Source: Fibrobacter sp. (GTDB lineage Bacteria; Fibrobacterota; Fibrobacteria; Fibrobacterales; Fibrobacteraceae). From it: a stretch of 64,000 nt of DNA. The position numbers and the translations under genes are program-made. This document shows positions 11,789 to 16,032 of the stretch, in pieces. The stretch lies in contig JAKSIH010000007.1 of assembly GCA_024398935.1 (NCBI GenBank), forward strand, positions 1 through 64,000, read 5' to 3'. Positions within the stretch are counted from its first letter, which is position 1; every line of letters starts with the position of its first letter. The notes beneath the pieces are model-generated. The model made no database searches, was not told where the DNA came from, and saw nothing but the letters and a program-made list of their open reading frames with translations.

Positions 11789-12541
11789 TTACCTGGAGGA
11801 TTTCTGGACAATGTCCTGTATGACAAGGCCCGCAATGGTAAACCCGAAAATGGCCACCGCATGAGCCATGGTACCGTTGTAGGCCACCTTGCGGAACTCC
11901 GCCGGAGCGCAGTCGTTCTCGGGAATGCCCCCGAGGTTTTTCAGCAGTTCCTCGCTATAGACGCACTTGATTTTTTTTGCGGGCTTGAGGTTCCGTTTCT
12001 TGAACTTGTCCCTGAGGGCTCGGGCCAGCGGGCAGCCTTTCACATCCCAGAATTCAGCCACACGGATTTTGGTGGGGTCCATCTTGAGGGCCGCCCCCAT
12101 GGAGGAAAACACCTTGGCCTTTGTGCGGGAGGCGTTCATCAGCAGCTGCATCTTGCTTTCCAGACTGTCAATGGCGTCGATAACGTAGTCGTAATTTCCA
12201 AGATGGAAACTGCCGCTTGTCTCTTCGCTGTAAAGTTCTGCACGGGCCTCGATCTGCGCGTCGGGATTGATTTCCAGCAGACGGTCCCGGAGGACATTCA
12301 CCTTTACCTGCCCTACAGTTTTTGTGGTGGCCATGAGCTGGCGGTTTATGTTCGTGACGCTTACGTTGTCGGAGTCCACCATTGTCAGGTGATGGATTCC
12401 GGAACGGACCAGGCTTTCGGCACACCAGCTTCCGACACCGCCCACGCCAAAGAGGATGACCCGCTTTTGCGTGATGGAGTCCATGGTCTCGTTTCCAACG
12501 AGGCGGATGGTACGGTTGAAAATGTCGGTGTTTGAAGCCAT
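11789..12541 (-). CDS. tcdA: tRNA threonylcarbamoyladenosine dehydratase (ThiF/E1-like)
   Basis: Uses ATP to cyclise the t6A base at tRNA position 37 to ct6A. The 250-residue ThiF-fold protein shows FGVGGVGSWCAESLVRSG (nucleotide-binding loop, about 31-48), DSDNVSVTNINRQL with the adenylation Arg (about 57-70), and YDYVIDAIDSL near the middle. A late KCVYSEE and C-terminal hydrophobic helix fit the TcdA/CsdL subfamily rather than MoeB or ThiF. It is the first gene of the operon containing the kinase-like, peptidase-like and PqqD-like genes; whether it has anything to do with them is unclear. Confidence 0.88.
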   Translation of the reverse strand: MASNTDIFNRTIRLVGNETMDSITQKRVILFGVGGVGSWCAESLVRSGIHHLTMVDSDNVSVTNINRQLMATTKTVGQVKVNVLRDRLLEINPDAQIEARAELYSEETSGSFHLGNYDYVIDAIDSLESKMQLLMNASRTKAKVFSSMGAALKMDPTKIRVAEFWDVKGCPLARALRDKFKKRNLKPAKKIKCVYSEELLKNLGGIPENDCAPAEFRKVAYNGTMAHAVAIFGFTIAGLVIQDIVQKSSR

Positions 12542-12661
12542 ACGCCTAATGATAGAAAAATGATAAGGGTGCCGACTCCGTTGAAGCGCCCCTCGGCGAG
12601 CTCGGGAACCTCGGGGAACTTGGGGAACCTAAAAAAAGAAAAGCCCCCGCCAGGCGAGGGT

Positions 12662-12695
12662 AAAAAAAAGGAGCACCCCAAAAGAGGGATGCTCC
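12662..12695 (-). terminator. Terminator after rpsI
   Basis: Stem GGAGCA-CCC / GGG-TGCTCC with an AAAAGA-type loop, followed on the minus strand by eight T. A further GC-rich hairpin with a T-rich flank sits at 12640-12661. Confidence 0.88.
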
Positions 12696-12714
12696 GTAAA
12701 GATCGAATGATCGA

Positions 12715-13119
12715 TTAGCGCTTGGAGAACTGGAAGTTCTTACGAGCCTTCTTACGGCCGAACTTCTTACGTTCAACGGCACGTGCGTCACGAGTCATCA
12801 AGCCTTCCTTCTTCAGAGCCGGCTTGTTTTCGGCGTCGTTAGCAACCAGGGCGCGAGCAATGCCGAGACGGACAGCGCCCATCTGGCCAGCGATGCCACC
12901 GCCACGAGCGGTAACTTCGACATCCCATTCTTCTGCGTTGCCGAGGATGGCGAACGGAAGGTTGGCGATCATGTTCTGCACTTCAGAGTGGAAGTAATCC
13001 TTAAAATCACGACCATTGATAGTGCGCTTGCCGGAACCCGGCTTCAGGATCACAGCGGCGATAGCGTTCTTACGGCGGCCAGTGCCACGGTAGATCTTCT
13101 TATTCTTTGCGGTAGCGAT
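12715..13119 (-). CDS. rpsI: 30S ribosomal protein S9, apparent AUC start
   Basis: S9 sits near the P site with its C-terminal Lys-Arg tail (FQFSKR) reaching the tRNA. The first conventional start in frame is a GTG at 13053, which gives only 112 residues and loses the conserved N-terminal block. Reading upstream in frame gives ATAKNKKIYRGTGRRKNAIA, the normal S9 N-terminus, with no ATG, GTG or TTG. The codon in the right place is ATC at 13119-13117, exactly 8 bases downstream of a perfect GGAGG (13128-13132). This gives 134 residues, the family's usual length. It lies 21 bases after rplM. Product identity is certain; the AUC start is inferred. Confidence 0.9.
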   Translation of the reverse strand: MATAKNKKIYRGTGRRKNAIAAVILKPGSGKRTINGRDFKDYFHSEVQNMIANLPFAILGNAEEWDVEVTARGGGIAGQMGAVRLGIARALVANDAENKPALKKEGLMTRDARAVERKKFGRKKARKNFQFSKR

Positions 13120-13140
13120 AGAGGTATCCTCCGTTCTAAA

Positions 13141-13569
13141 TTACAAGTCTACGACTTCGGGATTCTGTGCTGCGTGCGGATGTTCTGCACCGGCATAGAT
13201 TTTGAGTTTCTTGATCATCTTGTGACCGAGAGCGCTGTGCGGCAGCATGCCCCAGATGGCAGCTTCCAGCGGAGCGGTCGGGTGCTTAGCAAGAAGGTCT
13301 GCGAAGTTGATCCAGCGTTCACCGGAGATCATACCGGTGTGGTGGAAGTATTCCTTCTTCAGGTTCTTGTTGCCAGTCACTGCAACCTTTTCAGCATTGA
13401 TCACAACCACGAAATCGCCAGTGTCGACGTTCGGGGAGAAGATGGCCTTGTGCTTACCCATCAGGATGCGAGCAACTTCAGTTGCAACACGGCCCATGGG
13501 CTTGTTAGCGGCATCCACAAGCTTCCACTTGCGTTCTACCTTGCTCGGGTTTACTGTAATAGTCTTCAT
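13141..13569 (-). CDS. rplM: 50S ribosomal protein L13
   Basis: Early-assembly large-subunit protein. The 142 residues start MKTITVNPSKVERKWKLVDA and contain GRVATEVARILMGKHK, HTGMISGERWINFADLLAKHPTAPLEAAIWGMLPHSALG, all typical of L13. It is followed at once by rpsI, the usual pair. Confidence 0.98.
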   Translation of the reverse strand: MKTITVNPSKVERKWKLVDAANKPMGRVATEVARILMGKHKAIFSPNVDTGDFVVVINAEKVAVTGNKNLKKEYFHHTGMISGERWINFADLLAKHPTAPLEAAIWGMLPHSALGHKMIKKLKIYAGAEHPHAAQNPEVVDL

Positions 13570-13847
13570 GTAAATCCTTTAAGTTTCACAGTTATCAATT
13601 TTCAGGAGCGGGGTGCCCCTAGAATTGTGTCGGTAAATTTAGAAGAAACAGGAGGGGGTTGCAAGGGTGAAAAAAGTAATTTTTTTTAGAATTCCTTTTG
13701 TTTACTGGCTATTTTATTCTATCAATTATAATAATCATAATAATTATTATACAAATTTAGGATACCCTTGTCCTTTTTTCCACAAGAGACTCGGGGCATT
13801 TCTGCCACAGAATGAGTGTTTTTTTTTCGCCGTAGAATAACGAAAGC
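13570..13847. promoter_or_regulatory. rplM-rpsI promoter region and AT-rich spacer
   Basis: On the minus strand TAAATTTAC at 13633-13641 matches the -7 box, leaving a leader of about 60 bases. The leader contains a GGGGCACCCC-type hairpin and AAGGATTTAC before ATG. Bases 13684-13840 hold no gene; they are AT-rich with a ttataataatcataataattattata stretch of short inverted repeats at 13727-13752. Confidence 0.55.
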
Positions 13848-13881
13848 AAAAGGCCTCGAGGCGTCCGCCACGAGGTCTTTT
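13848..13881 (-). terminator. Terminator after first GH10 gene
   Basis: Stem AAAAGgCCTCG / CGAGGtCTTTT with an internal mismatch and loop agGCGTCCGCCa. The U-run is weak, but the position 45 bases after the stop codon fits. Confidence 0.7.
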
Positions 13882-13926
13882 GTTTGGTGTTTTGGATTAG
13901 GATCTCTTGGACCTTACGTCCGAAAA

Positions 13927-15852
13927 TTACTTAGCAACGCGGATGACCTGCATATTGCTGCCGTAACGGCTACGGATGATATACATGCCCTTGGACTTGA
14001 TGACATCGCTATCCTTAACGATCTGTACAGCCTGTTCCATGTTGTAGGCACTGAGGCGACCCACAAATTCACCCTGCATATCGTAGACATCGAAGTCGGA
14101 GGCGCGACCGTTGTTAAGCTGGAGGTTCTGGGCGATGCCGTCAGTACCCGGAATAGAAGGATCGACATCCGGGTTAGTCGGATCCACAACGGGGTTTTCC
14201 GGATCGGTAATCGGATCATCCTTCACGATAGGTTCCGGATCCTTTTCGCCCTTGGCAACGAAGGTCATGTAGTCGATGTCGAACCAGGCACCCGTAACGG
14301 TGAGGCGGAGGATATGCTTACCGGCGGTAAGGTTCACGTCGAAGTTCACCTTGTTGTAATCGTCATAGTTTTCTTCGCCGGCGGCGGCTGCAGGAACAGA
14401 AATCACTTCGGAAACGTTCTTGCCGTCCATGGAGAGCTGGAAGCTGGAGGTGTTACCTGCAGCGGCAACGGCTGCATAGACGGTGTAAGTACCGGTTGCC
14501 TTCACATCTACAGTGTATTCGTACCAGTTGCCTTCGTTGTTGTAACCCACGATATTGCCGGTAGCCTTCTTGTAGATGCTGACAGAAGTACCCTTACGGT
14601 AGTCGGAGTCGCCCTTGTTGGAGCTTTCTGCAGTGCTATAGGAGTCGTTGCCAGAGCCAATGCCCGGAATATCGAAGTCTTCGGCTTCAACCTTGCCCGG
14701 GATAGTCATGGACTTGAACGGAGTCTGCGGTTCAGGTTCGATAACGACACCAAACTGGGTGTTGTTCTGGCCCTTCTGGAGGTTCTGGGACATATACTGC
14801 TTGATCCAGGTCATGGATGCGCGGTCAGTAGTTCTACCATTGCTTTCGTTCATGAGACCAGTGTTCTGGACCCAGGTAGCGCCATTGATGTAACCCCAGA
14901 TGGTGATGCCTGCGACCCAGGGAGTTTCCCACATGAAGGGCAGCTGGTTCTTGAAGTCGTTGGCCTGCTTGGTATCGTCTGCTTCGCCGATATCGTATTC
15001 GGTAATGAACAGAGGAATGCCCACTGCATCGTGAACCTTTTTCATACGGGCTTCGAAGGTGGACTTATCCATTCCCTTCAGGTCATGAGCCTGCTGACCG
15101 TAGGCATCTACCGGAGCGCCATTCTTGATGATGGTCTTCACCAGCTCGATACCTTCGTCGATCTGCCAGGAAAGGGTGTTATAGTCGTTATAGATAAGAA
15201 CAGCCTTGGGCCAGCGTTCACGAGCCATCTTGAAGGCCGTGGTCACGAAGTCGTACTGGTGCTTACCGTTAACGATACGGTCGCCGCCAAGAGCATCGAT
15301 AATGTAGGAACCGCCGCAGCTGGGGTCATCGGTACCCACATGGTCATTGGTGGTAGCCGGCTTCGCATAGCCGGAGTGGTAGTTGGAACCGGCCCAGATA
15401 GCTTCGTTCACCACGTCGATGTATTCCAGGTTGGGGAACTGCTTTGCAACAGCGTCGAACCATTCGGTCAGGTACTTCTTGGTCTTTTCGACGGTAATGC
15501 CAGGATTCTTTGCAGTACAGAGGAAGTCGGGCTTCTGAGAACCCCAAATCAGGGCGTGGAACTTGAAGTGGCGTTCGCCCGGCTTTTCCATGGCCCACTT
15601 GTAACCGCTTTCGCACTTGTCGTAGTTGTCCCAGGCAAACTTGCTGTTGCCGTTTGCGTCTACGGAATGGATGGAGCCCCACTTACAGCCGTTTTCGGAA
15701 GTAAGCTGGTTCCAGTACTGGTTAAAGTCGGAGCGGATCTGGCCGCGGGTTGTGATATTGCCAAGGAACTTGGCGCCACCATCGGCAAGAGCTGCATGGC
15801 TTACGGTTGCGGCGGCAAGGCCAGCAATTGCGAGAGAGACAAACTTATTCAT
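13927..15852 (-). CDS. Secreted GH10 endo-xylanase with CBM6 and C-terminal tail
   Basis: Cuts internal beta-1,4 bonds of xylan. I place the start at 15852 (MNKFVSLAIAG, 641 residues, AAGGA six bases upstream); the open frame extends further but without a signal peptide. Order: signal peptide 1-23; GH10 barrel about 25-360 with HALIWGSQ, acid/base Glu150 in DVVNEAIW and nucleophile Glu285 in FITEYD; CBM6 about 385-525 (subtype with EAEDFDIPGIG and NYDDYNKV); Asp-Pro-rich linker; tail about 575-641 ending GMYIIRSRYGSNMQVIRVAK. A paralogue lies directly upstream. F. succinogenes S85 is known to carry a comparable cluster of GH10 xylanases with CBM6 and a Fibrobacter paralogous module. Confidence 0.95.
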   Translation of the reverse strand: MNKFVSLAIAGLAAATVSHAALADGGAKFLGNITTRGQIRSDFNQYWNQLTSENGCKWGSIHSVDANGNSKFAWDNYDKCESGYKWAMEKPGERHFKFHALIWGSQKPDFLCTAKNPGITVEKTKKYLTEWFDAVAKQFPNLEYIDVVNEAIWAGSNYHSGYAKPATTNDHVGTDDPSCGGSYIIDALGGDRIVNGKHQYDFVTTAFKMARERWPKAVLIYNDYNTLSWQIDEGIELVKTIIKNGAPVDAYGQQAHDLKGMDKSTFEARMKKVHDAVGIPLFITEYDIGEADDTKQANDFKNQLPFMWETPWVAGITIWGYINGATWVQNTGLMNESNGRTTDRASMTWIKQYMSQNLQKGQNNTQFGVVIEPEPQTPFKSMTIPGKVEAEDFDIPGIGSGNDSYSTAESSNKGDSDYRKGTSVSIYKKATGNIVGYNNEGNWYEYTVDVKATGTYTVYAAVAAAGNTSSFQLSMDGKNVSEVISVPAAAAGEENYDDYNKVNFDVNLTAGKHILRLTVTGAWFDIDYMTFVAKGEKDPEPIVKDDPITDPENPVVDPTNPDVDPSIPGTDGIAQNLQLNNGRASDFDVYDMQGEFVGRLSAYNMEQAVQIVKDSDVIKSKGMYIIRSRYGSNMQVIRVAK

Positions 15853-15889
15853 AGCACATCCTTTGGGCACATGCCCCATACTTACATCT

Positions 15890-15957
15890 CTAAATGTATC
15901 TTCTGAAAACCATCTACAGACTAGGGGAAGAACAACTTCTCGTGGACATTTTATCCA
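15890..15957 (-). promoter_or_regulatory. Operator TGGACATTTTATCCA (15943-15957) plus -7 box TACATTTAG (15890-15898)
   Basis: Palindrome centre is 52 bp upstream of the first base of the -7 box; all the others in the window are at 51. Serves the first GH10 gene. Confidence 0.8.
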
Positions 15958-16032
15958 TGGGGCAATCCCGGCAAAAACAGCATTTTCACACAAAAAACAC
16001 CAATTTCAGAGTTTCAATGAAAATTGTAGTCC

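Follow-up and report, generated by a model that had tools for sequence, protein, structure and literature searches.

Bacterial initiation at codons outside ATG, GTG and TTG is regarded as very rare. The classic case is infC, encoding IF3, which starts with AUU in Escherichia coli and many other bacteria and is autoregulated through IF3 discrimination. In Myxococcus xanthus, dsg/infC starts with AUC. AUC and AUU are discriminated by IF3, and AUG, GUG and UUG are not (PMC4611024). Translational coupling by the unfolding of structure over a downstream start site is a known mechanism in other gene pairs (PMC12548453). E. coli regulates rplM and rpsI together by translational control exerted at rplM (PMC10931766).

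Here, we describe the rpsI gene of a gut bacterium, Fibrobacter sp. (assembly GCA_024398935.1), located in a stretch of 64,000 nucleotides of contig JAKSIH010000007.1 (hereafter the window). Like infC, rpsI is a translation-apparatus gene with an IF3-discriminated non-NTG start behind a good Shine-Dalgarno sequence. Distinct from infC, it encodes S9 rather than IF3, its start codon lies within a predicted hairpin, and its regulation is one that we infer; infC itself starts here with TTG (17 of 18 genomes) or ATG (1 of 18). M. xanthus dsg/infC shares AUC itself as the start of a translation gene, but it is another gene, and rpsI has kept its AUC across much of a class of bacteria. Coupled ribosomal-protein pairs described by the RNA-unfolding model (PMC12548453) likewise have genes a few tens of nucleotides apart. 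Their downstream start lies in an inhibitory hairpin, of a kind that is predicted for rpsI; the downstream start is AUC/AUU in rpsI, and the coupling is putative. Autogenous control by uL13 in E. coli concerns the same rplM-rpsI operon, with both genes controlled translationally (PMC10931766, PMC6736130). The operator there is the structured rplM 5'UTR, whereas the unusual element here lies at the rpsI start and has no Rfam match. At the level of sequence and predicted structure, rpsI resembles infC-type starts by codon and hairpin-gated coupled pairs by geometry. No earlier report of an AUC or AUU rpsI start was found in a literature search that left many subscription papers outside.

The rpsI start site in the window and in relatives

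The genome has one copy of rpsI, which lies in the rplM-rpsI operon on the minus strand of the window. The features are as follows.

12662..12695, minus strand: terminator-like hairpin and T run closing the operon; inverted repeat GGAGCATCCC / GGGGTGCTCC, then the T run, as read from the sequence
12715..13119, minus strand: rpsI (ribosomal protein S9), 134 codons from ATC plus TAA, ending in the conserved tail FQFSKR
13051..13053, minus strand: GTG, the first in-frame NTG of rpsI; the start assigned by a gene caller limited to ATG/GTG/TTG, with a truncated 112-aa product
13110..13133, minus strand: predicted hairpin CGGAGGAUA[CCUC]UAUC-g-CU-a-CCG, 9 pairs, which would occlude the rpsI Shine-Dalgarno sequence and start codon; local MFE -6.4 kcal/mol
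13117..13119, minus strand: rpsI start codon ATC (AUC); ATC/ATT conserved at the site, aligned with the ATG of ATG-start relatives and followed by coding evolution in codons 2-22
13121..13124, minus strand: loop of the predicted hairpin, positions -5..-2 (CCUC), its variable part, with 17 parsimony changes
13128..13132, minus strand: rpsI Shine-Dalgarno sequence GGAGG; across 54 ATC/ATT rows of the family, positions -14..-6 show a single parsimony change
13141..13569, minus strand: rplM (ribosomal protein L13), the first gene of the operon; 142-aa ORF with ATG start and TAA stop

The minus-strand order is TTG TAA (rplM stop, 13143-13141), TTTAGAAC, GGAGG, ATACCTCT, and ATC (13119-13117). The sequence from the rplM TAA to the rpsI ATC is TTTAGAACGGAGGATACCTCT; 21 nt separate the rplM stop from the rpsI start codon, and the spacer between GGAGG and ATC is exactly 8 nt. 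No ATG, GTG, or TTG occurs in the rpsI frame between the rplM stop and the GTG at 13053-13051. ATC is the only possible in-frame start and is preceded by a properly spaced Shine-Dalgarno sequence. These coordinates, the 8-base spacing after GGAGG and the lack of an earlier NTG codon had been given correctly in a preliminary description of this DNA, which proposed the AUC start. Translation from the ATC at 13119 yields IATAKNKKIYRGTGRRKNAIAAV..., the S9 N-terminus, and the codons after ATC are GCT ACC GCA AAG AAT AAG AAG ATC TAC CGT GGC ACT GGC CGC CGT AAG. A start at GTG 13053 would delete IATAKNKKIYRGTGRRKNAIAA, the conserved S9 N-terminus; S9 coding conservation reaches 22 codons upstream of this GTG. 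Upstream of the operon, a large minus-strand ORF (window 13927-15993) resembles a secreted, xylanase-like glycoside hydrolase that carries a carbohydrate-binding module.

Genome contigs were scanned under protein guidance, which yielded 79 rpsI loci, in which the start codon was read upstream of the conserved YRGTGRRK motif. The set was enlarged by genus, phylum and family searches and by targeted stretches, and duplicates were removed. Among 90 distinct rplM-rpsI sequences (rows) of the class Fibrobacteria, the rpsI start was ATC in 59, ATT in 6, ATG in 25, and ATA in none. The AUH start is conserved among relatives (ATC/ATT in 65/90 rows), which bears out the proposed AUC start. Most Fibrobacter assemblies carry ATC, and cultured F. 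intestinalis ATCC 43854 and its kin carry ATT. ATG was found in one Fibrobacter clade, in Fibrimonadales and in the order-mate family f2. In the class-level family f4, whose S9 is ~60% identical, eight rows have ATC/ATT and two have ATG. The expectation that relatives would share the codon held for the nearest relatives of the window (L102-L104) and for its 38-row sub-clade, all ATC except L211, but not for the 25 ATG rows, which include the clade of the near-complete Fibrobacter genomes G045/G046. On the rplM+rpsI tree, the AUH/NTG state of the start switches at least six times, a count that does not distinguish gain from loss, and AUC/AUU persists across at least two families.

Two further observations were made in these searches. 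In the other classes of the phylum (L226-L233, eight rows), rpsI starts with TTG in seven rows and GTG in one; a tendency towards rpsI starts other than ATG may run through the whole phylum. In a Fibrobacter assembly of 8% contamination, the rpsI match is in two pieces with an in-frame TGA (G072:C22:20474-20868), which is probably an assembly fault.

In rpsI codons 2-22, the 110 inferred changes were split 11/7/92 over codon positions 1/2/3; the predominance of third-position changes indicates that the stretch from ATC to GTG is protein-coding. The ATC aligns with the ATG of ATG lineages (MAT and IAT at the equal position), and no conserved alternative in-frame start was found among relatives. 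The third base of the start codon underwent 8 changes; 42 conserved four-fold sites averaged 14.7. The conserved codon shows that most Fibrobacteria would start rpsI at AUC and some genera at AUU, and it strongly supports initiation at AUC in the window.

We regard it as extremely improbable that the ATC is a sequencing error, that initiation occurs elsewhere (GTG 13053, ACG or another codon), or that S9 arises by readthrough or frameshift from rplM. In favour of these readings stands the rplM TAA of the window, which shares the rpsI frame. However, the distance from rplM stop to rpsI start varies from 12 to 31 nt in ATC/ATT rows and the stop is found in all three frames relative to rpsI; S9 is therefore not a readthrough or frameshift product. 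Another start is opposed by S9 coding conservation, which begins at the codon after ATC. The one-base sequencing error offered as an alternative in the preliminary description is ruled out by conservation of the codon across genera and families, in tens of assemblies including one cultured isolate.

Start codons elsewhere in the genome

A self-trained hexamer model was applied to 2.57 of the 2.92 Mb of the assembly (88%), with 1964 gene calls. A gene counted as a candidate if its coding signal extended upstream beyond all NTG codons as far as an ATC/ATT that had a strong Shine-Dalgarno sequence at good spacing. Such a scan detects a start only when at least the next six codons contain no NTG, and it misses starts with an NTG shortly downstream. 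Within this scope, rpsI was the only convincing case. By our reading, the other listed candidates are antisense shadows, contig edges or ambiguous. Two good-coding ORFs, G000:C28 (stop 11428, +) and G000:C34 (stop 85943, -), are NTG-free over their first 18-21 codons and have no clear Shine-Dalgarno sequence; they are possibly frameshifts or unusual starts. The ribosomal genes in the S10/spc cluster have ATG starts. Neither they nor the 2.57 Mb scan gave any sign that AUH starts are common across the genome. The rpsI leader motif had a single exact match in the genome, rpsI itself.

infC was read in the window genome (G000:C37:16295; L081/L235) and in rows L236-L258. Its start was TTG in 17 of the 18 Fibrobacteria genomes read and ATG in one (L251). 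The classic AUU gene is therefore not AUU in these bacteria and the usual IF3 feedback start is missing, so feedback through an AUU infC was rejected. A special AUC-reading initiator tRNA is improbable: the 88% of the assembly that was covered holds only a normal initiator (anticodon CAU, GGG/CCC stem). A second initiator keeps a small probability, because tRNA-Ile(GAU) lies outside that part.

A predicted hairpin over the Shine-Dalgarno sequence and start codon

The arms and loop of the predicted hairpin read GAUA[NNNN]UAUC, where UAUC holds the start codon, and the stem goes on as AG/CU and CGG/CCG. The start region is under marked constraint: in the 54 ATC/ATT rows of the family, positions -12..-6 (GAGGATA), -1 (T) and -14 are unchanged, -13 changed once, and -5..-2 changed 17 times. 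Were these 17 changes spread evenly over -8..-1, all would miss the four paired positions with a probability of (1/2)^17, ~8e-6, a figure that ignores site-specific needs and was calculated after the structure had been seen. On local folding, most of the family's ATC/ATT rows are predicted to form the 9-pair hairpin (-3.6 to -6.7 kcal/mol). None of its ATG rows are, the energy being near 0 in the largest ATG clade, and GAUA is gone in three separate ATG lineages of Fibrobacter and close kin (the L208 clade, L211, and L050). The ATT rows retain the start-codon pair as G-U, and G-U variants occur in just two of the hairpin pairs. The rpsI site of the window was less accessible than that of 95.6% of 568 control genes of its own genome (4.4th percentile).

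The covariation check found no compensatory double changes, and the hairpin is not proven by covariation. Longer contexts of the window gained no stability over shuffled sequences (z -0.03 and -0.11), and a different fold was obtained with the 61-nt context. No Rfam family matched at gathering score in 12500-14000, and there is thus no known ribosomal leader near the operon. Family f4 keeps ATC/ATT as the start even though its hairpin is weak or missing; therefore, the hairpin does not explain the codon everywhere. Together, AUC/AUU in most relatives and, in the family of the window, the predicted hairpin suggest that S9 production has long been under a deliberate brake. The preliminary description is extended by the predicted hairpin itself and its loss where the start in the family is ATG, by the age of the trait as seen in its distribution, and by the TTG start of infC.

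Possible control of S9 synthesis

We give about even credence to a double brake, in which AUC and the hairpin would restrain rpsI until relieved by ribosomes finishing rplM, so that S9 is made in step with L13. The ordinary initiator tRNA would start rpsI at AUC (AUU in some genera), and the first Met of S9 is probably removed because Ala or Thr comes next. The Shine-Dalgarno sequence is strong, but with a start codon of the IF3-discriminated class and, in the family of the window, the predicted pairing of both elements, free 30S entry at rpsI would be held low. Ribosomes ending rplM 12-31 nt upstream would unfold the hairpin, and rpsI would be begun by them or by a 30S at the exposed GGAGG. 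S9 synthesis would thus be tied to L13 synthesis and to whatever control acts on rplM. The stop-start spacing is longer than ideal for termination-reinitiation, which speaks against coupling. With AUC in the IF3-discriminated class (PMC4611024), rpsI output may be kept low or IF3-sensitive, as the preliminary description had supposed.

S9 reaches the initiator tRNA in the P site through its C-terminal tail. An autogenous, infC-like fidelity circuit can be imagined, in which S9-poor 30S or low IF3 activity alters initiation at AUC and hence S9 output, and we judge it rather improbable. AUC and AUU do belong to the IF3-discriminated class (PMC4611024), the SKR tail is present in 89/90 rows, and family f4 keeps AUC/AUU without a strong hairpin. 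In yeast, mutations of uS9 reduce initiation at UUG more strongly than at AUG, in line with an effect of the uS9 tail on start selection (PMC6344880), but the lowered non-AUG initiation would imply positive rather than negative feedback; the bacterial work on the tail is that of Arora 2013, as cited in PMC6344880 and PMC7949028. Several ATG lineages would also be without the circuit. The more specific proposal that the rpsI AUC is a sensor of 30S quality, with the S9 tail and IF3 setting AUC acceptance and initiation fidelity governing S9 synthesis, is more doubtful still. If true, infC would have a counterpart, another autogenous circuit acting through a start codon, in bacteria that have lost AUU from infC itself.

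That S9 or another factor binds the hairpin as an RNA operator, with AUC/AUU forced by pairing of the third base with the last G of GGAGG, is unlikely, even though invariant arms around a variable loop and the absence of the hairpin from ATG lineages of the family fit it. Non-ATG Fibrobacteria rows have only C or U at the third base, never ATA, and the ATT rows of the family keep the G-U pair. However, rows L216-L218 of f4 hold ATC without a GAU partner, and the lack of compensatory changes and of an Rfam family above gathering score in 12500-14000 also argues against an operator. Historical drift supposes that GGAGG and coupling are strong enough to tolerate a non-AUG rpsI start with no regulatory role. 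The repeated AUC/AUU versus ATG switches, the several ATG lineages, and the TTG or GTG starts in the other classes of the phylum are what drift would leave behind. Drift is nevertheless a poor prospect given the persistence in at least two families, third-base change below the four-fold-site mean, the lack of a second convincing AUH-start gene in the 88% of the genome read, and the joint loss of AUH codon and hairpin.

Gene callers limited to NTG would shorten S9 by 22 residues in AUC/AUU genomes. The association with the predicted hairpin makes the reason for AUC/AUU testable. That an essential ribosomal protein gene keeps AUC/AUU through much of a class indicates that non-canonical starts can be stable features of gene design.
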